Shown here piece by piece: positions 27,648 to 51,127 of a DNA stretch of 64,000 nt. Source of the DNA: Aeromicrobium sp. Leaf350 (lineage in GTDB: Bacteria; Actinomycetota; Actinomycetes; Propionibacteriales; Nocardioidaceae); NCBI RefSeq assembly GCF_916858655.1, contig NZ_CAKASL010000001.1, positions 1,364,001 to 1,428,000 of the forward strand, written 5' to 3'. Both the position numbers and the translations under genes were made by a program. The number at the start of each line of letters is the position of its first letter. Positions within the stretch are counted from its first letter, which is position 1. The notes beneath the pieces are model-generated. The model ran no database searches, was not told the origin of the DNA, and worked only from the letters and a program-made list of their open reading frames with translations.

Positions 27648-27667
27648 CGGGTCGGAGGCTCCCGCCC

Positions 27668-31818: not shown

Positions 31819-32022
31819 CCGAACCCGATCATCTTGTCGCGATCTCTGGGCGACGTCGACCAAAGCCGACGTTCCAAAACGCCGGCACTTCCCGACCCGA
31901 TCCCCAGAGCGCACCGCCCCGAACCTCGATCGCATCCACGAACCTCCACACACCTCTTGCATTTCCGGTAGTTGAATCGCACACCACCGATCACCGCGAC
32001 CACCATCACGGCCATGCGGGTC
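31819..32022. other. candidate oriT region between divergent small gene and traA
   Basis: Non-coding DNA directly ahead of a MobF relaxase gene is the usual place for the transfer origin. It holds a stem GCCGACGTT (31865-31873) and AACGCCGGC (31878-31886) with a 4-nt loop and one mismatch, and a wider inverted pair CTCTGGG / CCCAGAG around it (near 31844 and 31912). No nic-site consensus can be matched by eye, so this is a position-based inference. Confidence 0.35.
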
Positions 32023-35000
32023 ATGACCATGTCGATTCACAAGCTGACGGCGGGGTCGGGGTACGACTACCTGACACGCCAAGTCGCTGCGATGGATGCG
32101 ACCGAGAAGGGCCACACGTCGCTGGCGACGTACTACACCGACCACGGCGAGACCCCGGGCCAGTGGATGGGCTCGGGGATGGCCGGCATCGACGGCCTGG
32201 ACGCGGGCGACCCCGTCACGGCCGAGCAGATGAAGGCGCTATTCGGCTACGGGTTCCACCCGCTGGCCGACTCCCGGATCGCCCAGCTGACCGACTCGGC
32301 ATCGACCGCCGCCATCAGGCGGGCCCGCCAGCTGGGCACGCCGTTCAAGGTCTACGAGGCGGACGTCCCGCCGTACCGGATCGAGGTCGCCCGCCGCCTG
32401 GAGGACCTCAACGTCGCCGAAGGGCGGCCGCGTGAGGCCGTGGTGTCGCTAGAGGAGCGGGCACGGATGCGCACCGAGGTGGCGCGCGAGTACTTCGTGC
32501 GCGAGCACGGCCGTGAGCCGGTCGACGCCCGCGAGCTCGCCTCCGCCGTCGCGCTGTACTCCCGGCCCAAGACCACCGCGGTGGCTGGGTACGACCTGAC
32601 CTTCTCGCCGGTCAAGTCCGTCTCAGCCCTGTGGGCCATCGCTGACCCGTCGACGTCGGCAGCGATCGAACGAGCTCACAACGCCGCCGTCAAGGACGCG
32701 CTGGCTTTCATCGAGCGAGAGGCCCTGTACACACGCACCGGCACCAACGGTGTGGAGCAGGTCGACGTCCGTGGCCTGGTCGCCACGGCGTTCACCCACC
32801 GCGACTCGCGTGCCGGCGATCCCGACCTCCACACACATGTCGCGATCGCGAACAAGGTCCAGACCGCCAAGGACGGCAAGTGGTTGGCCATCGATGGACG
32901 GCTGATGTTCCAGGCCACTGTCGCCGCGTCGGAGACCTACAACACCGCCCTCGAGCGTCACCTTGAGTCCTCGCTCGGTGTGCGTTTCGAAGATCGAGAG
33001 AACATCGACCGACGCAAGCGACCGGTGCGCGAGATCGTCGGGGTCGACGCACGGTTGAACGAGCGCTGGTCGACCAGGCGCCAGAGCATCGAGGAACGTC
33101 GTGACGTCCTGGTCGCGAAGTTCCACGCCGACCACGGCCGCCCACCGACCGCGGTCGAAGCCGTACAGCTCGCCCAGCAGGCCACGCTCGAGACGCGCGA
33201 CGCCAAGCACGAACCGCGCTCGATGCCCGAGCAGCGTGCCCAGTGGGCCGAACAGGCGGCCGGTGTTCTCGGTGTTAGGGGCCTGGAGCAGATGGTCACC
33301 ACGGCGCTTCGCCCCGCGCCGTTGTCGGCGCAGGCCGCCGCCGATCGCCGCGTCGACGCGGCGCGGATCGAACGCGTCGCCGGTCGCGTCGTCGAGGGTG
33401 TGCAGGACCGGCGGAGCACCTGGAACCGCTGGAACCTCCTTTCTGAGGCGCAGCGTCATGTACGCCGTTCCGACGTGCGGGCCGACCAGGTCCAGCACCT
33501 GGTGAACCTCGTGGTCGACCAGGCGATCGCCATCTGCCAGCCCTTGGGTGTCGTCGACGAGTCGGTCACGGAACCGGAGCAGCTGCAGCGACGTGACGGC
33601 GCCAGCGTGTACACCGTCGTCGGTGCCGAGCTGTACACCTCGCCGCGCATCCTGGCCGCTGAGCAGCGCATCGTCGAGGCCGCAGGGGTCCGCGACCGGC
33701 ACCGCGTGGCTCCGGTCGACGTCGACCTCGCGCTCCTGGAAAGCGCCGCCACCGGCGTCGAGCTCAACTCCGGCCAGGCCGCGATGGTCCGGGGCATGGC
33801 CACCAGTGGCGCCCGCGTCCAGCTGGGGATCGCGGCAGCCGGTACCGGCAAGACCACCGCGATGCGGGTTCTGACCCGTGCTTGGGAGGGCCCCGGCGGC
33901 AACGTCATCGGCCTAGCCCCGTCGGCGGCTGCGGCCGCAGCGCTGCGCGAACAGACCGGCACCACGACCGACACCCTCGCCAAGCTCGTCGACTCCCTGC
34001 AGCGCGGCACGGGAGGCGCCCTGGTCGACCAGATCGGCGCCGGAACGCTCGTGGTGATCGACGAAGCCGGCATGGCCGACACCCTGAGCCTGGACACCGC
34101 GATCACCGCGGTGCTCGAGCGCGGCGCCTCGGTGCGCCTGATCGGTGATGACCAGCAGCTGGCCGCGATCGGTGCCGGCGGCGTCCTGCGCGACATCGGC
34201 GACCGCCACGGCGCGCTCAGGCTCGCCGAGCTGATGCGCTTCTCCGACCCGGCCGAGGGCGCGGCGACCCTGGCGCTGCGCGAGGGACTTCCCGAGGCCT
34301 TCGGCTACTACTTCGACACCAAGCGCGTCCACGTCGGCGACGTCGCCACGCTGACCGACGAGATCTTCACCGCCTGGCGCAGCGACCGCGCTGACGGCAA
34401 GGACGCGGTCATGCTGGCACCCACCCGGGACCTGGTCGCCGAGCTCAACGCCCGGGCACGCGCGGCGCGCCTGGGCGACACCGGCGCGGTCCCCGACCGT
34501 GAGCTGCGGCTGGCCGACGGCAACAGTGCTTCGGTCGGTGACGTCGTGCTGACCCGCAACAACGACCGCCGACTGCGGATCTCGGCCACCGACTGGGTCA
34601 AGAACGGCGACCGGTGGCGCGTCGATGAAGTGCGCGGCACGGCACTGTCGGTGCGGCACGTGGAGACCGGTCTGCGGGTGCTGCTCCCGGCGAACTACGT
34701 CGCCGAGCACACCGAACTGGGCTACGCCTCCACCGTTCACACTGCCCAGGGCATCTCGGCCGACACGATGCATGGGCTCGTGACCGGTGACCAGACCCGC
34801 CAGCAGCTCTACACAATGATGAGCCGCGGCCGCCACGAGAACCATGCCTACGTCGTGGTCGCCAGCGACGGCGACGCGCACGGACTGATCCGTCCCGAGG
34901 CCCTCCGTCCGCCCACGGCCGGCGACGTCCTGACTCAGGTCCTGGCCCGCGATGAGTCCCCCCTCTCGGCCACCACACTCCTCGCGCAAGCCAACGCCCC

Positions 35001-37701
35001 GGAAGCTCGCCTGCAGAGGGTCACCGCGAAGTACGCCGACGCCATCTACGTCGCCGCCGCAGACCTCCTCGGTGACGACGTCGTCGCTGGCATTGAAACC
35101 CAGGCCGAGGTCCTCGTTCCCGGCCTGGTCGACGAGCCGGCCTGGCCATCGTTGCGCTCCCACCTGGTGCTGCTCCAGGCGCAGGGCGCCGACGCGATCG
35201 GCAAGCTCGCCGACGCCGTCGCGGCGCGTGACATCGAGTCGGCCGACGACCGCGCTGCGGTGCTGGACTGGCGCCTCGACTCCACGGGCCGGCGCGGCGC
35301 CGAGCCGGGGCCGCTGCCGTGGCTGCCGGCCGTCCCTGCTCGGCTCGCGGAGGACACCTCTTGGGGCACGTACCTCGGATCACTCGCCGATGAGATCCAG
35401 AAGGTCGCGGTCGAGGTGCACGCTGCCACCACCGAGGCGGACTCCCCGGCCTGGGCGCGTCACGCCCGCCTCTCGCCCACCACGGCGATCGCCGGCGACA
35501 TCGCTGTCTGGCGGGCCGCCACCGGCGTCGACGAGGCCGACCGGCGTCCGACCGGCCCGCGTCAGATGCAGAAGTCAGCGGTCCTCTATCAGCGCGAGCT
35601 CGACACGCGCTTGGACGCAGGTCGCCGTCCGGCGATGGACGAGTGGGGCCCGGCGATCCATGCCCTGCACCCGCGTTCGGACTCCTTCACTCCCCTGCTC
35701 GCTGAGCGCCTGGCCGCGATCAACCGGTCCGGCGTCAACGCCGCCGACCTGCTGGGCTGCGTGGCCGCGGAAGGTCCGTTGCCCGACGAGCACGTGGCCG
35801 CAGCGCTGTGGTGGCGCATCGCCCGGCACTTGTCGCCGGCGGTCGCGGCCGAGCAGAACTCCGGCGACGGCCGGGTGGCTCCCGACTGGGCCGATCTCCT
35901 GCACGAGCACCTCGGCGTCGAAGAGGCGTCCAACGTGACGTCGTCGCCGTGGTGGCCGACGCTGGTGGCCACGGTCGACCAGGCGCACGAGCGTGGGTGG
36001 CCGGTCGAGCAGCTGCTCGACTTCGCCAAGACCAGCGACGTCGAGGACCTCGACCTGGCCCAGGCGATGATCTGGCGCATCGCCCTCGTAACGGACCCGC
36101 CGCCGGAGCACGACTACGACGTCCCCGAGGAGAACCTGCCGCCCGAGGACCTCCATGAGCTGGACCCGCTCGAGTTCGACCACGACCACGACCACGACCA
36201 CGACTACGAGCTCGAGGTCGACGTCGACGTCGACGAGCTGGACGCTGCGGCGCACGACCGCGAGCTCCTGGAGCCGGCCGGAGCGACTGGGTCGGGTCTG
36301 GACCGGATGATCGACCGGGCGTGGGAGCTGCAGGCCTCCCCCGTCCCGGTCCAGCGCATCAACGCCGTCAACGCCGCCGCCGCGGACTACTTCGAGAGCC
36401 AGTTCTCCGGCTCGTGGGCTCAGCTGCACGTGCACGAACGACTCGGTGTCGACCTGGCCGGCGACGAGCGATTCCGCCCCGGCTACGCCCCGGCCGGCTG
36501 GACCAACCTGGTCGACCACCTGCGCGGCCGCGGCTTCACCGCCAGTGAGATGCTCGCCGCCGGCGTCGCCAAGGAAGCCTCCAACGGGCGCGTGATCGAC
36601 CGACTCCGCGACCGCGCCGTCCTACCCGTCATCACCGACGGACGGGTCATCGGGTTCGTCGGCCGACGCAACCCCGACGCCACCGACGACCTCGCCGGAC
36701 CGAAGTACCTCAACTCCCCCGACACCGTGGTGTTCCACAAGGGTGCCCAGCTCTATGGAATCGCCGACGATCACGTGGCCCACGGAGCGGCGCCGGTGCT
36801 CGTCGAGGGACCCTTCGACGCGATCGCCGTCACGATCGCCTCCGGTGGCGCGTTCGTCGGAGTCGCGCCGCTCGGCACGTCGACGACCGAGGAGCAGGCC
36901 GCCCAGCTCGCCGGCCTGCACGCCACCCCGTTGGTGGCCACCGACGGCGACCTTGCCGGGCGGATCGCCGCCGAGCGCGACCTGTGGCTGCTCGCCCCGC
37001 ACCTGGTCACGCCACGGGTCGTGCCCATGCCGGTCGGAGCCGATCCGGCCAGTCTGCTCGAGCAGCGTGGTCCGGCCCAGCTGGTGGCGCTTCTGCAGCA
37101 GCACCGCGACCTCGCCGCACTTTTGGTCGACGAACGCCTCATCAACCTGTCCGACCCGAGACAACGGAGCACCCAGGCAGCCGAGGTCATCGCCGTCATG
37201 GCACCCGAGCAATGGGAAGGGCTCATCGCCACCACCGCTTCAGCTGGAGCGCTGGACGCTGACCAGTTGCGCACCGACGTCGCCTCCGCGGCGCGCGCTT
37301 TCAACGGGGACCAGCAGCATTACTGCACCGAGAAGCTCGGCAACATCCCTCATGTTCGTCAGCGGCTTGAGGGCCATCAGAAGGCACGCCCGGCCGACCG
37401 TTGGGCCGCGCTCGGTCGCTCCCTCGACGGCCGACTGACCACCGGCAAAGACTGGCCGGCAACCGCGACCATGCTGCAGCAGCTCCACGAGCGGGGCATC
37501 GACGTCGAGAAGGTCGCACGACTGGCAGTCACAGCTCGGCCGCTCGGCCCGGACCCCTCACGCGACCTTCGGTACCGCCTCGCCGAGCATCTCGATAGCT
37601 CGCCGATCACAAGCCCAGCGGTTCCGCGCACGGCGCCCGCCCTCCGTGCGGAGGATATTCGCGGTCCGCGCCAGCGGCCCGGTCGAGTACCGCGCCGATG
37701 A
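32023..37701 (+). CDS. traA: TraA: MobF relaxase, helicase and TOPRIM primase in one protein
   Basis: A protein of about 1,892 residues. Residues 1-400 are a TrwC/TraI-type (MobF) relaxase: N-terminal 'MSIHKLTAGSGYDYLTRQVA' with the nicking tyrosine region and a histidine cluster at His270/His272 (DPDLHTHV). Residues 590-1000 are a superfamily 1 helicase with Walker A AAGTGKTT (Lys610) and Walker B VIDEAG (Asp680, Glu681). A linker follows, with an Asp/His-rich run near residue 1386. Residues 1430-1700 look like a DnaG-type primase core: 'DRAVLPVITDGRVIGFVGRR', 'PKYLNSPDT', and a TOPRIM with Glu1595 (VEGPFDA) and TDGD at 1640-1643. The start is one of three nearby ATGs (32014, 32023, 32029) without a clear ribosome binding site. 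It would nick oriT, unwind the strand and perhaps prime it in the recipient. Confidence 0.92.
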   Translation: MTMSIHKLTAGSGYDYLTRQVAAMDATEKGHTSLATYYTDHGETPGQWMGSGMAGIDGLDAGDPVTAEQMKALFGYGFHPLADSRIAQLTDSASTAAIRRARQLGTPFKVYEADVPPYRIEVARRLEDLNVAEGRPREAVVSLEERARMRTEVAREYFVREHGREPVDARELASAVALYSRPKTTAVAGYDLTFSPVKSVSALWAIADPSTSAAIERAHNAAVKDALAFIEREALYTRTGTNGVEQVDVRGLVATAFTHRDSRAGDPDLHTHVAIANKVQTAKDGKWLAIDGRLMFQATVAASETYNTALERHLESSLGVRFEDRENIDRRKRPVREIVGVDARLNERWSTRRQSIEERRDVLVAKFHADHGRPPTAVEAVQLAQQATLETRDAKHEPRSMPEQRAQWAEQAAGVLGVRGLEQMVTTALRPAPLSAQAAADRRVDAARIERVAGRVVEGVQDRRSTWNRWNLLSEAQRHVRRSDVRADQVQHLVNLVVDQAIAICQPLGVVDESVTEPEQLQRRDGASVYTVVGAELYTSPRILAAEQRIVEAAGVRDRHRVAPVDVDLALLESAATGVELNSGQAAMVRGMATSGARVQLGIAAAGTGKTTAMRVLTRAWEGPGGNVIGLAPSAAAAAALREQTGTTTDTLAKLVDSLQRGTGGALVDQIGAGTLVVIDEAGMADTLSLDTAITAVLERGASVRLIGDDQQLAAIGAGGVLRDIGDRHGALRLAELMRFSDPAEGAATLALREGLPEAFGYYFDTKRVHVGDVATLTDEIFTAWRSDRADGKDAVMLAPTRDLVAELNARARAARLGDTGAVPDRELRLADGNSASVGDVVLTRNNDRRLRISATDWVKNGDRWRVDEVRGTALSVRHVETGLRVLLPANYVAEHTELGYASTVHTAQGISADTMHGLVTGDQTRQQLYTMMSRGRHENHAYVVVASDGDAHGLIRPEALRPPTAGDVLTQVLARDESPLSATTLLAQANAPEARLQRVTAKYADAIYVAAADLLGDDVVAGIETQAEVLVPGLVDEPAWPSLRSHLVLLQAQGADAIGKLADAVAARDIESADDRAAVLDWRLDSTGRRGAEPGPLPWLPAVPARLAEDTSWGTYLGSLADEIQKVAVEVHAATTEADSPAWARHARLSPTTAIAGDIAVWRAATGVDEADRRPTGPRQMQKSAVLYQRELDTRLDAGRRPAMDEWGPAIHALHPRSDSFTPLLAERLAAINRSGVNAADLLGCVAAEGPLPDEHVAAALWWRIARHLSPAVAAEQNSGDGRVAPDWADLLHEHLGVEEASNVTSSPWWPTLVATVDQAHERGWPVEQLLDFAKTSDVEDLDLAQAMIWRIALVTDPPPEHDYDVPEENLPPEDLHELDPLEFDHDHDHDHDYELEVDVDVDELDAAAHDRELLEPAGATGSGLDRMIDRAWELQASPVPVQRINAVNAAAADYFESQFSGSWAQLHVHERLGVDLAGDERFRPGYAPAGWTNLVDHLRGRGFTASEMLAAGVAKEASNGRVIDRLRDRAVLPVITDGRVIGFVGRRNPDATDDLAGPKYLNSPDTVVFHKGAQLYGIADDHVAHGAAPVLVEGPFDAIAVTIASGGAFVGVAPLGTSTTEEQAAQLAGLHATPLVATDGDLAGRIAAERDLWLLAPHLVTPRVVPMPVGADPASLLEQRGPAQLVALLQQHRDLAALLVDERLINLSDPRQRSTQAAEVIAVMAPEQWEGLIATTASAGALDADQLRTDVASAARAFNGDQQHYCTEKLGNIPHVRQRLEGHQKARPADRWAALGRSLDGRLTTGKDWPATATMLQQLHERGIDVEKVARLAVTARPLGPDPSRDLRYRLAEHLDSSPITSPAVPRTAPALRAEDIRGPRQRPGRVPRR
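36178..36207 (+). repeat. hexanucleotide repeat GACCAC inside traA
   Basis: Four tandem GACCAC units followed by GACTAC encode an alternating Asp-His run in the linker between the helicase and primase parts of TraA. A second short run (GTCGAC repeats, about 36216-36234) follows. Such runs can change length by slippage in steps that keep the frame. Confidence 0.7.
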
Positions 37702-37718
37702 GCCGCACCGGAGTTTAG

Positions 37719-40700
37719 TTAGCGACGACCTCGGGCAGCGATCATCGTCGCTTCGTGTTTGTCGGGCTTGTCGAGGTACCGAGCCCAGTGAAGCAGCAGG
37801 TAGGCGCCGGCCGAGTCATTGAACTCGTTGGCCACAAGTTCGTGCATGAACTTCAGAACGTCCTGCAACGGATCTACGGCCTTGAGGTGCGTCGCGGACA
37901 CGCGGATCGCCCGAATAACTAGCGGGAGTAGTTCAGGAGTCATCCACGGTCTCGCGATGACCGTGCCGACTAGACGGGCAAGGTTGCGGCCTCTGCCTTC
38001 CGGCGTGGTCTCAAGACGACCGAAGCCGACGCCGGCAGCCGAGATCCAGCCCGCGAGCGCCGACTCGGAGCGCTCCGCGTTCTTTTCAGTGCCGCGGTGG
38101 AAGAACTCAAGTACGGGCTCTTTAGCCATCCAAGTGTCGGGAAGAGTCAAAGCGTTCGCGGCGCCTCCCGGATTCCAGTCGTCCATCGATGCGGCGAGGT
38201 CGAACACGTCTGGCTCGAACTCGAGCGCGACGTGGAAGTCACTGACAAGGCACGACTTCGCCGCAAGGGATTCGTCAGAATCGAGAACGCCTGCCTCCTG
38301 GGAAGCAACAACGAGATCGACCGTCGAGAAGGCCAGACAACCCTTCTGACGGGCGATGCTGGCGAGGACCAAGTCGTCGCACCAGAAGGCAAGCTCGTGG
38401 CTGATGGCGTAGTCGACTGCGCTCAGCCACGCTCCGTCCATATCGAGGTCCTCGAAGTTCGCCACGCGCCACTCGCGACGTTGAGTGCGCGTCAACAGTT
38501 CGACGAGATCGGTCGCCCGTGTCGCCCGAGCCTCCGCGACCTCGATAGGAAGTTCGTAAACCCGCGGATGCTCCTGTCCCACATCCCAGGTCACGCCAGC
38601 TGTCGACCGTGACGCCAGCGAACGCTGGGCCAGGCGAGCATCGCGAAATGCGGCAGCCGTGGTCTCAATCCTGGCAAAACCCGCCAGAAGCGTGTCGCGC
38701 GTGCCGGCCGGCATCGCGCATAGCGATACGGCTGCCGTGGTGTCGAGCACGACGGGACCGGCTCCCACCTCAGCGAGCCGCTCCTCGGCGGTGTCGCGAG
38801 TCGTGCCAGCCGGATTGCTGAAGACGAGTCCTGATGCTCGATTGATGACGATCTCGGCGTAGGACTTTCCGGAGACTTCGGACGCCAGTCCAACGGGAAG
38901 CTGGGCTGTCGTGATCTTCTCGTGAAGGTCCTCGAGCATCGGGTCCGGTGGGCCCTGCATCAACTCCTCGATGCCACGCAACGGGTTCTCAGGATCGATC
39001 GACACTTCGCGTAGCACCGGGCTGTCCGGGAACCGTCCAACGTACTCCTGAGTCAGTTCGCGCAGACGCGCCACATGACTGCTGTTCTCGTCCTGACCGC
39101 TGTCCTCGTCCAGGGCCGCGCTCGACCGACCAAACATCAGAACGGTCAGGAACACGCCCGCGACTTCCTCGTCGTCGCGCCATCTATTGAGCTCGTCAAG
39201 CGCGCGAGGTAGGAAGTGCGGGCTGAGGTCAGCTTCAGAGAGCAGCCGGATCCAGTTCTTCGCCTCGTCAGCAGTTCGAGGCCGGATGGGGCGCCCATTT
39301 CGATTCAGAGCGTCGAAGGCGGCGGCGGGTTCGCCGCGCAGACCCAAGCAGTTAACCAAGGCCCACCGTGCATCGTCGTTGTCGGGAGCCAGCGCCGTCA
39401 TGCGGCGCGCAACGTCGAGCCGTTCGTTGTCGCGCCCGAGTGCGTCGAGGGCACGAAATTCGATCGCGCGGCACTCGAACTCGCCGGACCACTCGGAACC
39501 CGCCATGGTGTAAGCCCGTCGGCACGCGTCCACCGCGGCGTCATAGTCACCCGCATAGGCGTACCGATCCGCGCTCATTTTCATGAGAAGAGCGTGATCC
39601 CAGCGCGCCGCGGCTTCCTCCAATACATTCGCGGCGTCCGCGTACGTTCCCAGCGACGAGAGCTCCTGCGCGAGTAGCACGGCGATCTGTTCGAACTTGT
39701 GCGCATTTGCCCGCAGCTTCGTCAATCGCTGCCCAGGCGTCGTGGCCATTGCGTCGTGAATCGCCCGGATCTCAACCACCTGCTCTTCGAACTCGACCCC
39801 GAGCACATCAATGTTCGGCAGCGTTAAGCCCAGCGGAGCAAGGGAGCGGGCAACTTGCAGTTGCGCGCGAGTGTCTTCAGCGAGATCCCATGCGGACAGC
39901 CAGTGAGACTCCGCTTCAGCCGCACTCTCGGAGTGGGCCGCGAGATGCCCGGCCACAAACTCCTTCATGAAGGGGTCGGCGATGTCAGCGAGCAACCCGG
40001 TCGCTTCCGTGACTCGGCCCGTCATGGCTGCTAGAACAGCCGCCTCTTGACGGACACGCAGATCACTGGCCTCCGCCTGTGTTGCTTCGCCAGCGTCGCC
40101 AGATTGTGTCAGCTCCCATGTCCGGTTCATGTCCCCCGAGAGCACCGAAGACTTGATCGCGACAACGACGGCCTCGCTGCTATCGCCACCCCACTGCCGC
40201 CGAGTGTCGCGTGCCTGCAGCGCTAGCTCGAGGGCACGGGCAAAGTCCGCCTGACGGCTAACTGTTCGTCCGCGATAGCCGCGCGACAAGAGCAACTCCG
40301 CCAGGAGCAACTTGTTTCCGCTCGCCTCGGGTAGTTCGGCGCAGATTTCTTGAAGCAACGAGATGGCTAGACCGTGCGCTCCCTGGCCTTGAGCGGCATG
40401 CGCTCTAAGTGTCGACCGCAAGGCCGCATCGTTGCGAGACTTCGCATCCCAGTCTGAAAGAAGGCTCTCCGCGTCGGACCAACGACCTGACCTCAGAGCT
40501 CGGATTGCTTCACCCAGAGGGTGTGTCGACGAGACCCCACCGAGCAGCTCTTCGGCTTCGGCTGGCCGCGCGTGCGTGTCGTCGATCATCAAGGCCGCGC
40601 GTGCTAACCAGTAGTCAGTTTCCGCCACTCCGAGGTCGACACCCCGCCGGATGAAGAACACGGCGGTCTCGGTGCGGCCGTAATTACTGGCGACCAGGCC

Positions 40701-41390
40701 GAGCCAACACCAGCCCACGCCAGGCGCCTTCTGAAGTTCTGTCGGGGCTTGCGTGCGCCATGCATCGAGCGTTCCACCTCGATCGTGCGAGAGGACGAGG
40801 TGATGAACCAGCGACTGCACCTGTGGCCACTCGCCGACCAGGACGGTGGCCTCCTCAGCCCGCCATTGCTGCAGACGTACCAGATCTTCCCCGAAAACTT
40901 GGGACGGACCCAGCTGCTCCATCATCCGCTCGAACCCGGCTTCGATCCTCTCGTTCGTCCCCTGAGACGTTGCGGTCACGAGCTGCTGCGTTCGCGAAGC
41001 GGCGGCGGCCGTTGCCTGCTGAGGGCTGATTGCGAGAAGGAATTGTTCGCATGCGATCTCGAGCACGGTGACCGCGTCCTGGACCCGCGAATCATCAGAA
41101 CCGGTCAACTCCTGCGCGAGAAGTCGCACGCCATCGACGAGCGCCTGCGACTCTCCGCTCATCAGGTATCTCTGTACGCCGGCATCGGCCAACCAGGCAC
41201 GGATGATGCGCGGATCGATGTCGATGCTTCGAGCCCTAGCGAGTTTCGATGTCCGGCGAGCAATACGTCGCCGTTGTGACTTGCTTTCTAGGAGCGCTTT
41301 GAACTTTGTGGCAGCCGCCCCTCCCGTGAGTTCCGCGAGGAAGCCGAGCGCGACTGACACTCCTGCGTCTATCACGATGGCGACCTCCAT
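37719..41390 (-). CDS. large TPR-repeat protein with C-terminal PIN-like nuclease domain
   Basis: A 1,223-residue protein. The N-terminus (about 1-160) is helical with a hydrophobic start (GVSVALGFLAELTGGAAATK) and a basic stretch (SKSQRRRIARRTSKLARAR). From about 180 to 800 it is a chain of TPR-like helical pairs, for example 'GTYADAANVLEEAAARWDHA' and 'AGDYDAAVDACRRAYTMAGS'. From about 880 a PIN-type fold is readable: Asp883 in 'VVLDTTAAVSL' and the paired Asp1005/Asp1006 in 'LAFWCDDLVLASIARQKGCL', then 'FSTVDLV'. About 200 residues follow. It is convergent with traA (17 bp between stops) and visibly less GC-rich than its neighbours, so it looks like cargo. A GTG at 41375 with GGAGG 8 nt upstream is a better start than ATG 41390. 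Not a protein I recognise by name; a sensor-plus-nuclease role is inference. Confidence 0.85.
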   Translation of the reverse strand: MEVAIVIDAGVSVALGFLAELTGGAAATKFKALLESKSQRRRIARRTSKLARARSIDIDPRIIRAWLADAGVQRYLMSGESQALVDGVRLLAQELTGSDDSRVQDAVTVLEIACEQFLLAISPQQATAAAASRTQQLVTATSQGTNERIEAGFERMMEQLGPSQVFGEDLVRLQQWRAEEATVLVGEWPQVQSLVHHLVLSHDRGGTLDAWRTQAPTELQKAPGVGWCWLGLVASNYGRTETAVFFIRRGVDLGVAETDYWLARAALMIDDTHARPAEAEELLGGVSSTHPLGEAIRALRSGRWSDAESLLSDWDAKSRNDAALRSTLRAHAAQGQGAHGLAISLLQEICAELPEASGNKLLLAELLLSRGYRGRTVSRQADFARALELALQARDTRRQWGGDSSEAVVVAIKSSVLSGDMNRTWELTQSGDAGEATQAEASDLRVRQEAAVLAAMTGRVTEATGLLADIADPFMKEFVAGHLAAHSESAAEAESHWLSAWDLAEDTRAQLQVARSLAPLGLTLPNIDVLGVEFEEQVVEIRAIHDAMATTPGQRLTKLRANAHKFEQIAVLLAQELSSLGTYADAANVLEEAAARWDHALLMKMSADRYAYAGDYDAAVDACRRAYTMAGSEWSGEFECRAIEFRALDALGRDNERLDVARRMTALAPDNDDARWALVNCLGLRGEPAAAFDALNRNGRPIRPRTADEAKNWIRLLSEADLSPHFLPRALDELNRWRDDEEVAGVFLTVLMFGRSSAALDEDSGQDENSSHVARLRELTQEYVGRFPDSPVLREVSIDPENPLRGIEELMQGPPDPMLEDLHEKITTAQLPVGLASEVSGKSYAEIVINRASGLVFSNPAGTTRDTAEERLAEVGAGPVVLDTTAAVSLCAMPAGTRDTLLAGFARIETTAAAFRDARLAQRSLASRSTAGVTWDVGQEHPRVYELPIEVAEARATRATDLVELLTRTQRREWRVANFEDLDMDGAWLSAVDYAISHELAFWCDDLVLASIARQKGCLAFSTVDLVVASQEAGVLDSDESLAAKSCLVSDFHVALEFEPDVFDLAASMDDWNPGGAANALTLPDTWMAKEPVLEFFHRGTEKNAERSESALAGWISAAGVGFGRLETTPEGRGRNLARLVGTVIARPWMTPELLPLVIRAIRVSATHLKAVDPLQDVLKFMHELVANEFNDSAGAYLLLHWARYLDKPDKHEATMIAARGRR

Positions 41391-41606
41391 TAGGTCGTTG
41401 GCGGTAGTAGGTCGAGACCGAGATGCTCCAAGTCAGCGTTAACACCCTTACAGATGGTCCCGACAAGTTCGTGAAGCGGCGGACTACCGGACAGACCACG
41501 GCGAGGAATGCTTGGCCGAGGACAGTGGACGCGCCATCAGGAGCTTCGCAGCGCTACAAGACAGTCAAACTGCAGCCAGCCGGTCGAACCTTGCGATCCA
41601 ATACTC
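41391..41606 (-). promoter_or_regulatory. leader region of the TPR-PIN gene
   Basis: A 216-bp gap between the DUF4913-like gene and the TPR-PIN gene, both on the minus strand. No gene is convincing. It is more A+T-rich than the secretion genes and is the likely place for a separate promoter of the TPR-PIN gene, but I cannot assign boxes or a clear terminator. Confidence 0.3.
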
Positions 41607-42251
41607 TCAGTCCAAAAGTTCACCTGTTTCTGGGTCAACCACGCTGAGACGCGGAGCGCTCGGTGCTGACGCTGTTTCATCCGCCTCGACGCGCGAGGTT
41701 CGAACGTCGCCCGCGTAGGCCTCGGTGCGCTTGCGCAGCTCAACGTCCGAGACGTGGTTCAAGTAGCGACTTCGCGAGGGCCATGGGGTGTGCTGGCGCT
41801 CGCAATGGGACTGCATTCTTGCGCGCATTCGCTCGAGAAACGCTGGAAATGTATACCGGTGCCACTCCTCGATGAGATCGCTGCTGAGCGCTTCATGGAC
41901 CCGGTGTCGCTGGTCGGCCAACACTGCGAGCTCGTGAATCAGGTGAGGGTGGCGAGGCCAGCACGCTGGGATGATCCCGGTCGGGTCGAAGACGTACTCA
42001 TGGTTGATCCACGCCGCGACGCGGTCCAGCCACTTCCAAAGGTCGATGCGCAGGACGGGGTCGGCGCATGTCGCAGGCAGCCACGGACGCGGGAGATCTC
42101 TGACGTTCCCCAGCGCGGCGATTTCTTCTGGTCGGCCATTGGCGGCGACGGACAGCTCACGATAGGCAAGCCGTACCCGCGGAGGAGGCTTCGGGAACGG
42201 CCAGACCAAGCGACCGTCTTCGACTGCCGGAACCTCGCGTTCTGTGCTCAT
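41607..42251 (-). CDS. DUF4913-like protein of the conjugation operon
   Basis: A 214-residue protein. The central part matches my recollection of DUF4913, a family common in actinobacterial conjugation loci: 'LRIDLWKWLDRVAAWINHEY' followed by 'GIIPACWPRHPHLIHELAVL' and 'EEWHRYTFPAFLERMRAR'. ATG at 42251 overlaps the stop of the coupling ATPase gene by 4 bp; the longer open frame upstream is the coupling gene out of frame. It is the last gene of the secretion operon. Function unknown. Confidence 0.7.
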   Translation of the reverse strand: MSTEREVPAVEDGRLVWPFPKPPPRVRLAYRELSVAANGRPEEIAALGNVRDLPRPWLPATCADPVLRIDLWKWLDRVAAWINHEYVFDPTGIIPACWPRHPHLIHELAVLADQRHRVHEALSSDLIEEWHRYTFPAFLERMRARMQSHCERQHTPWPSRSRYLNHVSDVELRKRTEAYAGDVRTSRVEADETASAPSAPRLSVVDPETGELLD

Positions 42252-43684
42252 GTGGGCCACCCGCCGAGTCCTCGACGCTGCGACTCCACAAGCGCCGCCG
42301 TGGCGCGCGCGGCGGGGTCGATCCGGTGGTGACGAGCGGACTCGACACGAGTTCGTGCTTCTTCCTGTGCCCGCAGGAGCTCCCGGCCCGGGGCGCCGTC
42401 GATGCAGCGCTGCAGCTTGGCCAGCACGGGTCGGCCGTTCTCGGCGATGATCAGCGCCTGGCGTTGCTCGAGCTGGCGGATCTCGGCGCCGGTCAGAATG
42501 GGGATTTCGTCGCTGCTGCTCGAGCGGCCGGCCATTGCCCCGCTCTGCCAGTTGAACCGGGTCACCCGGACGGGGCCGAGCATGTCGGAGACCTCCTGGT
42601 TGAAGGAGACGTCCTTGGAGCCACCGAACAGGGCTAGGACGTTTGTCAGGCCGAAGAGGGCTCGGGCTTCCTGCTCGCCGAAGATTGCCGCCAGCTGTCG
42701 CCACGTCTGGGCGGCGTAGATGAAGGACAGGCCGAGCGCGCGCTCGTTGGCCATGCGGGTGCGCAGGGTCGGTAGCGGTGCGGTCGAGGGGAGCTCATCG
42801 AGCACCGCCGCCATCGGCGGGCACAACCGCCCGTGAGGTGACTTGTTGGCGAGCTCGAGGGCGGTGTCCAAGACGTGTTCGGCCACGGCCGTCATTAACG
42901 GTGACGCCGACGCGTAGGGGTCTTCTCGGCCGAGGAGGTAGATCGTGCCGCCGCGGGCGATGATGTCGAGGACGTCGGTGGCACGTCTCCCCCGTCCGGG
43001 GACGCACCGTCGCCGGATGTCGCCCTGGAAGAACAGCGACATCGCCTGCTGGATGGTCGTGGCGGTGTTGCCGGCGGTCCGGTCGTCACCACGCAGTGCC
43101 CCTAGCAGGAGCCCGTGCCAGAACGGTGCGGCGTGGGGGTGATCGCGCAGGATTTCTTCGGGTTCGGTCGCGGCGCGGGGGTTGGCGACCCACTCCAGGA
43201 CGTCGTCGAGGCCGCGGCCGCTGAGAGCGGCGGCGTGGAAGAACGCCTGGATGACCTTGGACGCCTCGGCGGCGTAGAACCGTGCCGCGTCGTCGGTGTG
43301 CGAGGAGCCCTTGACGGTGCCGGCGGTGAACGCCTTCGCTCGCCGTTCGGCGAGCATCGGGTCGACGCACCCGGCGACCGGGTCGAAGACGAACTCCGGC
43401 AGACCGGGCGCGAGACCGAACGGATCCAGCACCACGCACGGCCGGTCGTCGACCGAGCGGGCGTCGATCGTCAGCAGCAGGTCCTCGACCTTGGTCAGCG
43501 TCACCAGGGCGGCGCCGGGCGCGCCGAGCAACGCCGGCACGAGCACGTCGAGCGTCTTGCCCGAACCCTGAGGGCCGATGACTCCGGTGGTGCGGTCCCA
43601 CGGCACCCACAGCTCCTTGCCCGTGCGTGGCTCGTGGGCCTTGCCGAGCTTCCAGCCGACCTGTGTCGGGTCGAACGTCTTCAT
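42248..43684 (-). CDS. VirD4/TraD-type coupling protein, ATPase part
   Basis: A 478-residue soluble ATPase of the coupling-protein family (T4CP). Walker A is GPQGSGKT (residues 37-44), Walker B 'MAAVLDELPSTAPLPTL', and 'ERALGLSFIYAAQTWRQLAA' is the TraM-recognition/motif region. The usual N-terminal transmembrane pair is missing: the protein begins 'MKTFDPTQVGWKLGKAHEPR'. The upstream gene, overlapping by 4 bp (ATGA), supplies two membrane helices, so the coupling protein seems to be split into two chains. It would deliver the TraA-DNA complex to the secretion channel. Confidence 0.92.
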   Translation of the reverse strand: MKTFDPTQVGWKLGKAHEPRTGKELWVPWDRTTGVIGPQGSGKTLDVLVPALLGAPGAALVTLTKVEDLLLTIDARSVDDRPCVVLDPFGLAPGLPEFVFDPVAGCVDPMLAERRAKAFTAGTVKGSSHTDDAARFYAAEASKVIQAFFHAAALSGRGLDDVLEWVANPRAATEPEEILRDHPHAAPFWHGLLLGALRGDDRTAGNTATTIQQAMSLFFQGDIRRRCVPGRGRRATDVLDIIARGGTIYLLGREDPYASASPLMTAVAEHVLDTALELANKSPHGRLCPPMAAVLDELPSTAPLPTLRTRMANERALGLSFIYAAQTWRQLAAIFGEQEARALFGLTNVLALFGGSKDVSFNQEVSDMLGPVRVTRFNWQSGAMAGRSSSSDEIPILTGAEIRQLEQRQALIIAENGRPVLAKLQRCIDGAPGRELLRAQEEARTRVESARHHRIDPAARATAALVESQRRGLGGWPT

Positions 43685-44187
43685 CGCCGGACCCTTCCGG
43701 GTGCGGTGTGCAGATCGGGTCGCACGATGTGGGCGTGCTTGCGTAGGCGGGTCAGGCCGAGGACCTGGTCGACCTCGACCGGCGTGGCCATGCCCTTGAT
43801 GCGCCCCGACCCGAAGCGGCGCAACGTCAGCACCGCAGCCCATGTCGTGGCCACGAGGACGACGAGCTCGAGGAGGATGACCCAGATGATGACCGAGTTG
43901 CCGGAGGCGTGGTTGGCCGGAATCTCGGCCAGGCCAGCGGTCGGGTCACCGGTCAGGATCGCCGGCAGGCTGGTGAAGATCGCCCGCGACTCCGGGAACG
44001 CCCACGGAGCCCCGGAGAACCAGTTCGCCACCGCCCTGGCCACGTGCACGGTGACGATCAGCACGAAGCTGACCACGATCACGACCCCCACGGGGATCTC
44101 CCACGACCACGGGTAGGGGTTGGACCGCCTGTCCTGCTGCAGGTTCGCCATACTCCACAAGGCCCAAAACCCGCTCTCGGTGATCAC
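43681..44187 (-). CDS. membrane partner of the split coupling protein
   Basis: A 168-residue protein with two strong membrane helices, 'IPVGVVIVVSFVLIVTVHVA' and 'SVIIWVILLELVVLVATTWA', followed by a cytoplasmic tail of about 50 residues. This is the layout of the N-terminal membrane domain of VirD4-type proteins, and the ATPase part is encoded directly after it with a 4-bp overlap. The start at GTG 44187 gives MITESGFWALWSM, a copy of the MITE segment found elsewhere in the module; ATG 44151 is the alternative, but neither has a well-spaced ribosome binding site. Confidence 0.8.
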   Translation of the reverse strand: MITESGFWALWSMANLQQDRRSNPYPWSWEIPVGVVIVVSFVLIVTVHVARAVANWFSGAPWAFPESRAIFTSLPAILTGDPTAGLAEIPANHASGNSVIIWVILLELVVLVATTWAAVLTLRRFGSGRIKGMATPVEVDQVLGLTRLRKHAHIVRPDLHTAPGRVRR

Positions 44188-44202: not shown

Positions 44203-45738
44203 TTAGGCGGGGGCGTCGACGTTTCCGACGCGCCAGATCTCGTAGATGTTCTTGCCCGTCGAGCTGTAGGGGAAGTTCCCGACGCCCGTCTTGGTGCTGC
44301 GGGCGTCGATCGTGGTCTGGGTGGCGGGGTCGTTGACGATCACGACGTGGCCGACCTGGTTGGGCCCCAGGTAGGAGTCCCAGAAGATCAGGTCCCCGGG
44401 GCGCTCCTGGCCAGGCTCGACACGGAACCCGTTGCCCTGCGCGAGCCAGTCGCGCTGCGTGCCGGCGGTGCGGGGCATGTTGATGCCAATCTGCTTGAAG
44501 GCCATCTGGACCAGGCCCGAGCAGTCGAACCCGGCAGGTCCGGTGCCGCCGAAGATGTAGGGCTTTCCGGCCTGGGCGTTGGCCCAGGTGAGCACGATGG
44601 CCGCTCGTGGGCCTGCTAGTGGCGACAGGCTGGGGTCGCCGTTGCCGCTGCCGTCACCGCAGTTCTCGACACTGCCCATGACGGTGCCGCCTCCGTAGGC
44701 GTGCGCGTAGGTCAGGACGTCGTTGACGTACCAGTCGGCGTGGTTGTAGGCGAAGATCGCGTCCCGCACGCCCTGCTCTCCCTTGGAGACGCCGCTGGCG
44801 GTCAGGTAGTTCGCAGCCGAGTAGATGCTGTCGGCGGTGTTGGTGATGTCCGCGCGGCCGTCGCCGTCGCCGTCGACGCCATACTTGGCGAACGTGGCCG
44901 GCATGAACTGCATCGGTCCCTGGGCGCCGGCGCTGGAGACGCTCGTCAGCGCGCCGTGGCGGGTCTCGATCATCCCCACGGCCGCGAGGACCGTCCAGGG
45001 CATGACGTACTTGTCGGTCGCAGCGACGTAGAGCTGGCGCATGTTCTCGGGGATGGGTGCGGCCGGGGTGTGTGATGAATGCTTGACCGGTGTGCCCGGC
45101 GCCGGCAGAGGGAACCCGATCCCGGCGCTGGCGTCGTCGACGGCTGGTGGAGGTGCTGCGACGGTCTCGACGGGCTGGCGTCCGTCCAGGACGACCCCCT
45201 GGGCGGCCATCCACGGCTTGGGGTCGATCGCTTGTCCGTTCTGTCGGACCTCGAAGTGCAGGTGGGCGCCGCTGACGTCGCCGGTGGCGCCTTCGACCCC
45301 GACCGGGGTGCCGGCCTGCACGCTCTGGCCGACCGCGACTGACGGGGTGCGTGCCAAGTGTCCGTAGCGGGTCTGGATGCCGCCCCCGTGGTCGATGAGG
45401 ACCTGGTTGCCGTAGCCGCCGCGCCAGCCGGCCTCGGTGACCGTGCCGCCGGCGGCCGCGACGATCGTCTTGGAGCCTGTGGCCACCAGGTCGATGCCGG
45501 CGTGCATCTTGTGGACGTTCTGGGTGGGGTGCAGTCGCATTCCGAAGGTGCTGGTGATGCGGTGGGTACCGGTCATCGGGGGGCGCCAGGCGCCGGCGGT
45601 CACCGCGACCGGTCCCCCGCACGACGTCGAGGCGATCGCCGCTGGCGCGATCGCGCCGCCGGCGATCAGTGCCACGGCGACCAGCGGCATGACGAGCACG
45701 GCCACGAGGGCCATGCCGATCCACCCTGCGGACTTCAT
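44203..45738 (-). CDS. three-domain peptidoglycan hydrolase of the secretion system (VirB1-like)
   Basis: A 511-residue secreted enzyme. A membrane signal segment lies at about residues 5-38. An M23 peptidase domain follows with His79-x3-Asp83 and His159-x-His161. A lytic transglycosylase domain has catalytic Glu258 ('VGMIETRHG') and 'AQGPMQFMPATFAKYG'. The C-terminal NlpC/P60 domain has Cys406 ('FDCSGLVQ') and His464 ('GHVVIV'). Having endopeptidase, glycan-strand and P60 activities in one chain is unusual; most conjugation systems have one or two. ATG at 45738 overlaps the VirB4 stop as TGATG. It should open the wall locally for channel assembly. Confidence 0.93.
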   Translation of the reverse strand: MKSAGWIGMALVAVLVMPLVAVALIAGGAIAPAAIASTSCGGPVAVTAGAWRPPMTGTHRITSTFGMRLHPTQNVHKMHAGIDLVATGSKTIVAAAGGTVTEAGWRGGYGNQVLIDHGGGIQTRYGHLARTPSVAVGQSVQAGTPVGVEGATGDVSGAHLHFEVRQNGQAIDPKPWMAAQGVVLDGRQPVETVAAPPPAVDDASAGIGFPLPAPGTPVKHSSHTPAAPIPENMRQLYVAATDKYVMPWTVLAAVGMIETRHGALTSVSSAGAQGPMQFMPATFAKYGVDGDGDGRADITNTADSIYSAANYLTASGVSKGEQGVRDAIFAYNHADWYVNDVLTYAHAYGGGTVMGSVENCGDGSGNGDPSLSPLAGPRAAIVLTWANAQAGKPYIFGGTGPAGFDCSGLVQMAFKQIGINMPRTAGTQRDWLAQGNGFRVEPGQERPGDLIFWDSYLGPNQVGHVVIVNDPATQTTIDARSTKTGVGNFPYSSTGKNIYEIWRVGNVDAPA

Positions 45739-47240
45739 CAGGCTGCGCCGGCGAGGTTCTCGTTGGTGAACGTCAGCTGGTGCTCGGCCGGGTGGAGGAC
45801 GGTCTGCACCTGGTACAGCTGATCGCCGACGCCCCAGAGCGCCCGCCCCTTGCCCTGCATGCCCCACCCCGTGACGAGGTTGCGGGCGATCTGCCCGAGC
45901 CCGAGCAGCTGCTCGAGCTCGTTGGCGACGCCCTGGTCCTGGCCGTGGAGGATCTTGATGTCGACCAGGTGCAGGAGGTCCTTGGCGATCGTCTGCGCCT
46001 GGCTGCCCGCGCTGCCGGCCGACAACAGGTCCGACGGCTTGTGGGCGACGGCGAACTGGATATCGCCGTCGCGGCGCGACAACCGCAGGTCGGCATCGAA
46101 GCTCTTAACGGCCTCCACTCCGAGGCGCAGCTGCTTCCAGGACTCGTCGCGCACCACGACGCGCATGTCACCGGGGGCCGCGAGCTCGCGCATCCCTCGC
46201 CCCCAGGAGTTGAGGCAGGTCAGCGCGATCCCGGTCGCTTCCTCACCCAACGGCTCGAGGCGCGACAGGCTGAGCGACTGGATCGGTGCCGTCCAGTCGA
46301 TGTCGATGTTGGTGTGGCCGTCGAACAGACCCGCGAGCGCGCCGGTGACCAGCTGGGCCAGCGCGTCGCGCAGCAGGCGGGTCTCGTCGAGGAAGTGCCG
46401 CTCGGACTCGTACCGGGTCGAGGCGATCAGCTCGGGGGTCGGGCTGTCGAGCAGGTGCCACAGCTCGGCGATCGTCGTTTCCTTCAGCCGGGCGCTGCCG
46501 CGGTCGTAGCCAGTGAGGGTCTCCAGCGCCCGCTTGATGACCACTTCGTCAGAGGGGCCGAACGGCACGTGCTGGGCGCCGACCTTCTGCGATCCGACCA
46601 GGCCTCGCACGAGGGTCAGCCACCTCGAGAACACCACGGCGGAGCGCTCCTTGGCCTCGGTGGCGTCCAGCTGGTCCCATCCCTGCCCCAGCGGGCCGAG
46701 AGCCAGCGGGTTGATCCGCGTCGACATGCCGGGGCCGATGCTGAACGGTTCGACCCCGAACGCCCGGCACAGCGGCTCGTACTCGTCCTTCGGATCACCC
46801 AGGATCAGGGTGCGGTACCCGAAATCCATCATCCGCAGGCAGAACGCCTTGGTCGTGGCGGACTTGCCGCGCCCGGGCTTGCCGAAGCTCATGATGTTGG
46901 GGTTGGTGACCGGGATCGAGTCGTCGAGCACCCAACCCATCGGGTCGGCGTAGAATGCCGCACCGGAGAGTTGGTCGATGCCCATCTGCGCCCCGGTGGG
47001 CGGCAGACCGGGTGTGGAGATCCACGGCCACAACGCCGGCGTCTGCTCCGACGTCATCTGCCACCGCAGCACCGGAGCCCGGCTGGCCGACCAGCCCCGG
47101 TCGCGCTGGAAGCGCCCGGCGCGAGGGGCCGGGCGGAACAGGCGAGGCTCCTTCACTGTCTCCTCGACCACCGCGGCGGCGGGCAGCTCGTGACCGAAGT
47201 CCGACAGGAGTCGGCCGATGTCACGTCCCTTGGTGCCCAT
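45738..47240 (-). CDS. VirB4-type ATPase of the type IV secretion system
   Basis: A 500-residue AAA ATPase. Walker A is GKPGRGKS (residues 120-127), followed by 'YRTLILGDPKDEYEPLCRAF', the usual VirB4/TraC landmark; the Walker B region is 'MRVVVRDESWKQL'. It is shorter than full VirB4 because the N-terminal domain of VirB4 appears to be encoded by the preceding SCO6880-type gene, a split known for actinobacterial systems. Its ATG overlaps the stop of that gene (TGATG). It powers assembly and substrate transfer at the inner face of the membrane. Confidence 0.9.
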   Translation of the reverse strand: MGTKGRDIGRLLSDFGHELPAAAVVEETVKEPRLFRPAPRAGRFQRDRGWSASRAPVLRWQMTSEQTPALWPWISTPGLPPTGAQMGIDQLSGAAFYADPMGWVLDDSIPVTNPNIMSFGKPGRGKSATTKAFCLRMMDFGYRTLILGDPKDEYEPLCRAFGVEPFSIGPGMSTRINPLALGPLGQGWDQLDATEAKERSAVVFSRWLTLVRGLVGSQKVGAQHVPFGPSDEVVIKRALETLTGYDRGSARLKETTIAELWHLLDSPTPELIASTRYESERHFLDETRLLRDALAQLVTGALAGLFDGHTNIDIDWTAPIQSLSLSRLEPLGEEATGIALTCLNSWGRGMRELAAPGDMRVVVRDESWKQLRLGVEAVKSFDADLRLSRRDGDIQFAVAHKPSDLLSAGSAGSQAQTIAKDLLHLVDIKILHGQDQGVANELEQLLGLGQIARNLVTGWGMQGKGRALWGVGDQLYQVQTVLHPAEHQLTFTNENLAGAA

Positions 47241-48748
47241 CAGTTAGTCCCCCTGGCCAGCGACACTCCGAGCGGGATCGTCGAGGCCGCGAAGGCCACG
47301 TCTTGGGCCAGGTCGAGTCGGAGCGGCGACAACCCGGCACGCCTGATCGAGGAATCCAGGCGACGGCCAGCTTCGCCGGCGCGCACCGTCTTGGGCACGG
47401 TCACCGTGGCCACGGCGTATGGCTGGGTCAGGGCGCTGCCGCGGGCGAGCTTGGTGTCGAGCCGGCGCACCTTGTCGGCGTCCTCGCGCTCGCGCGCCCG
47501 CTGTTTGACCTTGCCCTTCTCGCGCAGACCGTCGGCGATGTCGGCGCCCCACTCGCTGTTGCGGGCCTTGGTCTCGGCGCGCGCCTGGTCGAGGATCGGG
47601 AACGAGACCACCAAGCTGCGCCGTTCTCCCGGTTCGGTGGGGGTGATGATCGGTGCGAGCGCGCCCATCAGCATCCCCTTGTCGGGCAGCTTCAGCGTCG
47701 AGGAGACCGAGTTCCAGGCGTCGTGCGAGTAGTGCCGCACGACGCTGTCGGCGCCCGACGGTCCCGCCAGGGCCCACGGCACGTCGGCGTCGACCCGGGT
47801 GTCGTGGGCGGCCGCATCGAGTGCGTTGACGATGCTCGCGCGATCACCTGGGGCGAACCCGGTCCGGCACGCGGCCGCGAGCGCAGGCGAGGTCAGCCAG
47901 CTCACCTCGGTCATTCCGACCGAGGACTTGAGCTGTGCCTCGACCTCGCCGGCGAGCATGTACAGGCTCTGGGCGCGCCCGGCCAGACCGCCGCCGGCCT
48001 CCTGGGCTTCCTTGGCCAGGCGGCCCTCCGGGACCACGAACGTCACGAACGCCTCGGTGCGCACCGTGCCGCTCGAGAGTGCCTCCTGGAGCTCGTCGTT
48101 GATTCGGCGAGCCAGTTGCGGTCCACCGTCACGGCGGTGCTTGCTGACCCACTGGGTGCGCTCGGCGCCGTCGTCGGGGACCGTGCGGATGGTGACCAGC
48201 AGCTCGTCGATGAGCTCGGTCCGTGCGCTCATCTCGATCAGCTCGGCCAAGCCCAGTCCGTGCCGGTGACGGGTCGACGGCTCGGCCATGCCGATCCCGG
48301 GGTGCACGATCGCTGCCGTCATCGCCCACGTGCGGGTGGAATGGTTCTGGATGATCGCCAACCGTGCCTGTTGCGGACCTCGCGGAGCACCCTCGTGGAT
48401 CTCGACACCACTGAGCGGCCCCGGCAGGTCGGGAACGGCCAGAGCCGTCTCCTGGCCTCGCGCGGCGCGGGAGCGGAACCGGGTCCGTCCCGCCATCGTT
48501 CCGAGCGTGAACGCGGCCAGTGAGACCAGCCATCCTGTCGCGGACCGACCCTTGACGGGCACGACGACCAGCGCGATCGTCAGGGCGCCGAGGAAGGCCA
48601 GGGCGAGGGATTCGAGCACCGCTCCGCGGGAGAGGGCGATGATGGCCGGGAACGCCGCGGCGGTCACCGCGCCGACCTGGAGCCCGGAGAGGCCGAAGAA
48701 CCAACCGACCCGTGCTCGGCCGTAGTCGTTGTAGACGGTTGCGCTCAT
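47240..48748 (-). CDS. SCO6880-type membrane protein (VirB3/PrgI-like plus VirB4 N-terminal-like)
   Basis: A 502-residue protein with two to three membrane helices in the first 90 residues ('WFFGLSGLQVGAVTAAAFPA', 'ALAFLGALTIALVVVPVKG', 'GWLVSLAAFTLGTMAGR'), then a long soluble part. I assign it to the SCO6880 family found in actinobacterial conjugation loci on general pattern and position, directly upstream of VirB4 with a one-base stop/start overlap. By inference it supplies the VirB3-like membrane anchor and the non-ATPase N-terminal part of VirB4. Confidence 0.78.
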   Translation of the reverse strand: MSATVYNDYGRARVGWFFGLSGLQVGAVTAAAFPAIIALSRGAVLESLALAFLGALTIALVVVPVKGRSATGWLVSLAAFTLGTMAGRTRFRSRAARGQETALAVPDLPGPLSGVEIHEGAPRGPQQARLAIIQNHSTRTWAMTAAIVHPGIGMAEPSTRHRHGLGLAELIEMSARTELIDELLVTIRTVPDDGAERTQWVSKHRRDGGPQLARRINDELQEALSSGTVRTEAFVTFVVPEGRLAKEAQEAGGGLAGRAQSLYMLAGEVEAQLKSSVGMTEVSWLTSPALAAACRTGFAPGDRASIVNALDAAAHDTRVDADVPWALAGPSGADSVVRHYSHDAWNSVSSTLKLPDKGMLMGALAPIITPTEPGERRSLVVSFPILDQARAETKARNSEWGADIADGLREKGKVKQRAREREDADKVRRLDTKLARGSALTQPYAVATVTVPKTVRAGEAGRRLDSSIRRAGLSPLRLDLAQDVAFAASTIPLGVSLARGTN

Positions 48749-48784
48749 GGTGTCCTGCTTTCGTTGGTCGTTGTTGTCGAGAGG

Positions 48785-50284: not shown

Positions 50285-50287
50285 GGG

Positions 50288-51124: not shown

Positions 51125-51127
51125 GGT

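Follow-up and report, generated by a model that had tools for sequence, protein, structure and literature searches.

What does a single, very large gene do when it sits between the relaxase gene and the transfer operon of a conjugative element? The question is raised by a 64,000-nucleotide stretch of the genome of the actinobacterium Aeromicrobium sp. Leaf350 (here called the window), in which one frame encodes a 1,223-residue protein that joins a TPR array to a PIN-type nuclease domain. An earlier note, made from the sequence, had proposed this TPR-PIN protein as an undescribed defense protein carried as cargo. In this study, we have found that an integrative conjugative element carries this gene as cargo and that the gene product belongs, by profile, to the PIN family of a conflict system already predicted in 2021, from which it appears to differ in lacking a detectable GreA/B-C domain. 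On balance, we favor the view that the element carries a one-protein anti-phage sensor-RNase that senses an invader, cuts RNA, and stops the infected cell.

Domain architecture and the predicted PIN nuclease

The frame lies on the minus strand, opens with an ATG at 41390, and runs through all 1,223 residues with no internal stop. Where translation starts is uncertain: in the public gene call (P0002) the first residue is Met77, relatives such as P0003 begin near residue 1, and a GTG at residue 6 has GGAGG ahead of it. The frame, the Pfam matches, and the structure models agree on a helical N terminus, a TPR array, and a PIN domain within one protein, as the earlier note had read it (Table 1). 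The key match was to PF20698, "PIN domain associated with the TPR-GreAB-C-PIN system," which covered residues 881 to 1014 (E value, 2.5e-13; 50.9 bits against a cutoff of 27.8) and 137 of the 138 profile positions; the same family was present in all 15 rows of family set A1 (E values up to 1). Through PF20698, the prediction of a PIN domain at these residues is firm.

An AlphaFold2 model of residues 77 to 1223, built from 23 sequences (mean pLDDT, 84.4; pTM, 0.54), had helical repeats that extend to approximately residue 786 and are followed by a largely helical linker (787 to 879), an alpha/beta stretch (880 to 1032), and a helical C terminus. Strand accounted for 27 of the 153 residues in the PIN stretch and 2 of the 93 in the linker, which was modeled with moderate confidence (ten-residue block means of 58 to 85). 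Absence of a PIN fold at residues 870 to 1050 had been named in advance as evidence against the proposal; the Pfam match and the modeled secondary structure instead point to such a fold. Pfam matches to TPR families were weak, the best being TPR_19 at 24.7 bits (cutoff, 25); comparison of the same model with the PDB returned lists filled by helical-repeat, mostly TPR, proteins, and RapI and AimR were among the best structural matches of the TPR part. A model of residues 1 to 340 (16 sequences; pLDDT, 81.5) was helical throughout. The N-terminal domain (residues 1 to 160) had no Pfam match above the cutoff, and a Foldseek search of the N-terminal model against the PDB gave nothing under an E value of 0.2. 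For the whole protein, a PDB sequence search found no close chain (best E value, 2.6), and an NCBIfam scan gave two matches, both far under the cutoff.

The conserved acidic cluster expected of the PIN nuclease superfamily is present as Asp883, Asp917, Asp1005, and Asp1006. Conservation was assessed in an alignment of 31 sequences, comprising the window protein, 11 loci, and 19 database proteins; the window's own copies (P0001 and P0002), the truncated P0014, and the incomplete L005 and L020 were omitted, and P0023 onward were found later. This alignment bore out the acids singled out by the earlier note, Asp883 (with one glutamate) and the invariant Asp1005/1006, and added the equally invariant Asp917 to them. 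The acids were kept in family sequences that share only about 20% overall identity, and the other invariant residues were Trp988, Ala1013, Gly1017, and Phe1021. The PIN domain is presumably an active RNase.

Relation to the TPR-GreA/B-C-PIN system

The layout is not undescribed, as the earlier note had supposed: its PIN domain is PF20698, and a 2021 paper (PMC8195603) had already set out the order N-terminal module, TPR, GreA/B-C, PIN. In the parts of that eLife paper that deal with the system, TPR, GreA/B-C, and PIN form the constant, rapidly evolving core of a predicted conflict system, and the N-terminal module over this core is EAD10 or one of 13 other effector domains, including PNPase and REase. 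The same parts propose that GreA/B-C docks on the secondary channel of RNA polymerase, whereupon PIN cuts the extruded transcript (PMC8195603).

The window protein shares with this system its PIN family and a TPR array N-terminal to the PIN domain. Its family likewise places a variable N-terminal module over a constant core: among 30 family rows, PF01048 was found in three (P0017, P0018, and P0027) and PF14280 in another three (P0019, P0020, and P0021). The published system is mostly a standalone gene, and the window gene is the sole clear gene of its slot. The window protein is set apart, however, by a helical N terminus without a match to a named effector, perhaps by a helical part of about 190 residues that follows the PIN domain, and by the lack of a detectable GreA/B-C domain.

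The last difference was examined by several routes. No match to PF01272 (GreA/B-C) was found in the TPR-PIN protein at a limit of E 10, although HMMER filters drop most matches above about 0.1. Precomputed Pfam data gave PF01272 in none of the 30 family rows (15 + 6 + 9 rows, own P0002 included and 10 plain TPR rows left out). A GreA profile (14 domains of 20 loci) compared by hhalign with the linker, the whole protein, and the C terminus reached a probability of at most 0.2%, whereas the two GreA halves compared with each other gave 100%, an easy control between close relatives. The sensitivity of hhalign here is limited, since even the PIN domain against VapC gave only 6 to 10%, and the test proves little alone. 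The sheet needed by an FKBP-like fold was not in the linker model, where confidence is moderate.

Since the defining GreA/B-C domain was sought and did not appear, we file the window protein as a variant of the system rather than as the system itself: it appears, from profiles and models, to be a PF20698 PIN-family member free of GreA/B-C, set apart without comparison to the archetype WP_017307658.1. Because GreA/B-C is undetectable, the published model of docking on RNA polymerase is probably not valid in its present form for this branch, in which the TPR array, together with the helical N and C termini, would have to provide recognition. In the literature searched, chiefly open access and with bioRxiv preprints outside its range, we found neither a PF20698 protein that had been put to the test nor any account of a branch without GreA/B-C.

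Two other PIN proteins invite comparison. DS-3, in the portion of the DefensePredictor paper that presents it (PMC13092281), is a one-protein PIN defense system that lacks an antitoxin and is presumed to stay autoinhibited until the cell is infected; mutants in its catalytic residues lose defense. The window protein is likewise a single protein with a PIN nuclease and no antitoxin, and autoinhibition is proposed for both; unlike the window protein, however, DS-3 has a PIN domain split between its N and C termini, and the two are likened by description, not by sequence. By analogy, DS-3 may be taken as a working precedent for the principle of an autoinhibited one-protein PIN system, not as a demonstrated relative. 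The first PIN acid of VapC toxins (VapBC) aligns with Asp883, and the distal acids are plausible counterparts; the third acid, however, is out of place by alignment, profile similarity is weak, and the window protein is about nine times longer and has no visible antitoxin partner.

The conjugative element, its cargo slot, and the neighborhoods of relatives

The TPR-PIN gene can be recognized as cargo of the integrative conjugative element because six elements with the same flanks hold other content, or next to nothing, in its place; the gene's standing as cargo in a conjugation module, asserted in the earlier note, is thus upheld. Of the 49 genomes of the genus, 19 had a traA match; six of these, in which the match to the primase-bearing protein was longest (58 to 90% identity), were compared. 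All six share the traA and traG flanks, and none has a TPR-PIN match, which rules the gene out as a backbone gene of the element. The slot loci are 37702-41606 in the window, L071, L064, L066, L067, L068, and L069. One Schlafen AlbA_2 protein occupies the slot in G019, and that in G020 (about 7 kb) holds an IS110 transposase and an FRG-domain gene matching the PADLOC candidate PDC-S15; the slot in G002 has 1.7 kb of short frames only, which were not searched, and those in G010 and G025 measure 19 bp and, by extrapolation, about 0.3 kb. The slot accepts defense-type and metabolic genes. A 463-residue frame adjoining the FRG-domain gene in G020 (L067:4229-5617) had no Pfam or PADLOC match.

The base composition of the gene is different, as had been noted, with 63.2% G+C, whereas the window as a whole has 67.7% and traA 70.8%; a value as low was reached in 4 of 302 equal-sized window steps (overlapping steps counted). 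The gene and traA do converge, with 17 bp between them. The flanking traA gene has 1,909 codons and combines a TrwC relaxase, a helicase (AAA_30), DNAG_N, and Toprim in one protein. On the other side, the earlier note was right that the gene adjoins the secretion operon, but its statement that the gene does not belong to that operon is less secure: read-through from the transfer operon is possible because the TPR-PIN gene lies on the operon strand, 216 bp past the end of its last gene (41607-42251). A scan for sigma-70-type promoters at the TPR-PIN gene found none and is a weak guide in an actinobacterium.

From its repeats, the element is likely to be about 40 kb long, from 27.6 to 67.8 kb. 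The word TGTGGGCA within the 23-bp direct repeat occurs four times in 144 kb, two per repeat site. Just beyond the window lie a tyrosine integrase gene (window-equivalent 64928-66016), then a helix-turn-helix/IrrE-type regulator, and tRNA-Ser (window-equivalent 67914-68001). A related element in G019 lies at the same tRNA-Ser, with the repeats also shared; similarity to the window chromosome starts at 67858 in G032 and G029. The left end would lie at the 27628 repeat; no similarity of relatives spanning that repeat was found, and only a short partial copy of the tRNA-Ser 3' end, 12 bases unbroken, lies near it. Left of 26 kb in the window, where PADLOC was run on six frames only, matches were short or weak. 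About 3 kb past tRNA-Ser at the right end, a frame of 1,238 residues (L029:7255-10968) had no Pfam (E <= 0.01) or PADLOC (E <= 0.001) match.

The distribution of the gene is sparse. A TPR-PIN match was found in 1 of 98 related genomes searched, the window's own (49 of the 98 belong to the genus), in 8 of 391 genomes of the order, and in 3 of 396 genomes of the phylum, own genome included in both. The presence in 1 of the 49 genomes of the genus rules out a housekeeping gene, and the possibility that homologues are found only as housekeeping genes, which had been named as counting against a defense role, is contradicted by the patchy distribution and by carriage on plasmids and elements. A phage-borne origin is unsupported: searches of the phage collection gave no match, and none was confirmed among viral contigs. 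Two plasmid records have a match, one of them partial; the other, on plasmid pNicSoilB8, adjoins a MOBP-type relaxase gene and mobC. One relative, in G672 (L020:8614-11429), is split into two frames and is probably broken.

The neighborhoods of relatives were scanned at nine loci, with L005, L020, L023, and L024 excluded; 20 chosen neighbor proteins were compared with Pfam, and seven of them, together with three slot proteins, were compared with PADLOC. Known defense genes were present in five of the nine (L006, L007, L021, L025, and L027). They comprised a type I restriction-modification system beside the TPR-PIN gene (L006); a type IV restriction enzyme (1,139 bits) with an SLFN-g3 helicase and MazG (L007); LmuB (119 bits) and an LmuA-like nuclease, with HamA-like nearly tied (L021); a PifA-like KAP protein (181 bits) with SLFN-g3/MazG (L025); and an adjoining KAP gene with an Avs2-like protein (293 bits) 5.8 kb off (L027). 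Elsewhere, L004 had an annotated PDDEXK nuclease and an AAA protein, L026 a NYN gene, and L019 a transposase, and L022 had nothing in the two proteins scanned. The neighbors differ from locus to locus, and KAP and the SLFN-g3/MazG pair recur, in two loci each. G741 and G767 each have one KAP gene, at most 0.5 kb away from the TPR-PIN gene; Avs2 occurs in 1 of 11 genomes (G767), near the TPR-PIN gene; and LmuB matches occur in 4 of 11 genomes and are adjacent in one, G608, whose sole LmuB adjoins the TPR-PIN gene. The pair of a MazG-like protein and a Schlafen-group-3 helicase near TPR-PIN genes was seen in two genomes (L007:16837-18874 and L025:2226-4257).

Table 1. Features of the TPR-PIN gene and its element, in window positions
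Feature	Position	Strand	Basis
TPR-PIN protein gene, 1,223 codons	37719..41390	-	Open frame, Pfam
Residues 1-160, all-helical N-terminal domain; effector-type or other domains here in some relatives	40911..41390	-	Model
Residues 162-786, TPR-type helical-repeat array	39033..40907	-	Pfam, model, structural matches
Residues 787-879, helical linker at expected GreA/B-C position	38754..39032	-	Model, profile comparison
Residues 880-1032, PIN domain (PF20698 match 881-1014)	38295..38753	-	Pfam, model, profile
Residues 1033-1223, all-helical C-terminal extension, found in most relatives	37722..38294	-	Model, comparison with relatives
Asp883 codon, first predicted PIN acid	38742..38744	-	D in 30, E in 1 of 31
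Asp917 codon, second predicted PIN acid	38640..38642	-	D in 31/31
Asp1005-Asp1006 codons, distal predicted PIN acids	38373..38378	-	D in 31/31 each
traA-type relaxase-helicase with C-terminal DnaG/Toprim primase part	31972..37701	+	Pfam
Variable cargo slot, traA end to end of conserved backbone gene	37702..41606		Element comparison
Small conserved backbone gene, 214 codons	41607..42251	-	Element comparison
TraG/TraD-type coupling protein	42248..43843	-	Pfam
Peptidoglycan hydrolase, TrbL-like, and Tad-pilus-type transfer genes	44203..61353	-	Pfam
23-bp direct repeat, likely element ends	27628..27650 (left); window-equivalent 67821-67843 (right), beside tRNA-Ser		

Proposed function and its alternatives

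We consider it most likely that the TPR array, perhaps with the helical N terminus, binds a trigger that is a product of infection; that the PIN domain is held off by autoinhibition until the trigger binds and is then released; and that the released domain cuts RNA so that the infected cell stops, as in abortive infection. Autoinhibition, RNase activity, and the abortive outcome are each presumed here. The single-gene defense role put forward in the earlier note is made plausible by the distribution and neighborhoods, and the role itself stays at the level of a proposal.

Several observations weigh against a defense function. No defense phenotype, nuclease activity, or trigger has been demonstrated for any relative, the TPR-PIN protein itself had no match in a PADLOC scan, and a second defense gene was not identified in the scanned parts of the element. 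Non-defense cargo also occupies the slot: that of G032 (10.6 kb) holds a transposase together with genes for COX1 cytochrome oxidase and PIG-L. The best PDB match of a PIN profile made from 12 sequences was 3ix7 (TTHA0540, which we take to be a PIN protein), with an E value of only 0.14 and around Asp1005/1006. Comparison with a VapC-type PIN profile from the same bacterial family (19 of 30 loci used, loci with a stop having been dropped) placed Asp883 on the first PIN acid with an hhalign probability of only 6 to 10%, and the usual third acid of VapC, as read by eye, fell on Trp988. Four of the nine scanned neighborhoods were without a clear known defense gene, KAP is located elsewhere in G608 and G416 and absent from five of nine genomes, and the LmuB of G672 and G831 also sits elsewhere. 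Furthermore, the marker families were chosen after the neighbors had been seen and were compared with whole-genome counts only; these counts therefore illustrate, and do not prove, enrichment.

An alternative is that the TPR-PIN protein serves the element and uses the PIN RNase as a weapon, either to exclude competing plasmids or elements or to kill cells from which the element has been lost. Carriage by an integrative conjugative element and the relative beside mobilization genes on a plasmid fit this explanation, and PIN RNases are best known as VapC toxins, a point also made in the DefensePredictor paper (PMC13092281). We nevertheless consider it unlikely, given that no antitoxin-sized partner stands out in a slot with one clear gene, that 1,223 residues is far from the size of a VapC toxin, and that several relatives adjoin known defense genes. 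Regulation of the element's own transfer by transcript processing, with the TPR part reading a signal as in Rap-type regulators, is very improbable. The gene follows the transfer operon and shares its strand, and the structural matches to RapI and AimR point the same way; however, TPR matches of such strength are general to helical repeats, and elements with 58 to 90% identical relaxases are without the gene, so that transfer hardly needs it.

A further alternative is that a GreA/B-C domain is present but too diverged to be recognized, which would make this a conventional TPR-GreA/B-C-PIN protein acting on RNA polymerase in the manner put forward in 2021. In favor of this, the PIN domain of the 2021 system is PF20698, the exchanged N termini agree with that system, and the core is called rapidly evolving in the relevant part of the eLife paper (PMC8195603); the insensitivity of the profile test (6 to 10% even for PIN) and the moderate confidence of the linker model (58 to 85) also leave room for a hidden domain. 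On the other side stand the lack of PF01272 at a limit of E 10, though filters drop very weak matches, and its occurrence in none of the 30 family rows, the 0.2% of the GreA profile against the linker beside 100% in the easy control with GreA halves, and the 2 strand residues among 93 modeled for the linker. We judge a hidden domain decidedly unlikely.

In conclusion, the TPR-PIN gene is a good defense candidate, and its novelty is limited to the GreA/B-C-free branch. We suggest only tentatively that the GreA/B-C-free TPR-PIN proteins are a distinct one-protein immune class that senses through the array alone, without docking on RNA polymerase, and that has spread among actinobacteria in a dedicated slot between relaxase and coupling protein. 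In the 2021 prediction, GreA/B-C is what links the PIN nuclease to RNA polymerase (PMC8195603); a branch that is free of GreA/B-C, with its PIN acids and N-terminal exchange, would uncouple these two ideas and make it simple to test where the invader is sensed. The slot itself is a defined position in a family of conjugative elements at which unknown defense genes may be sought.

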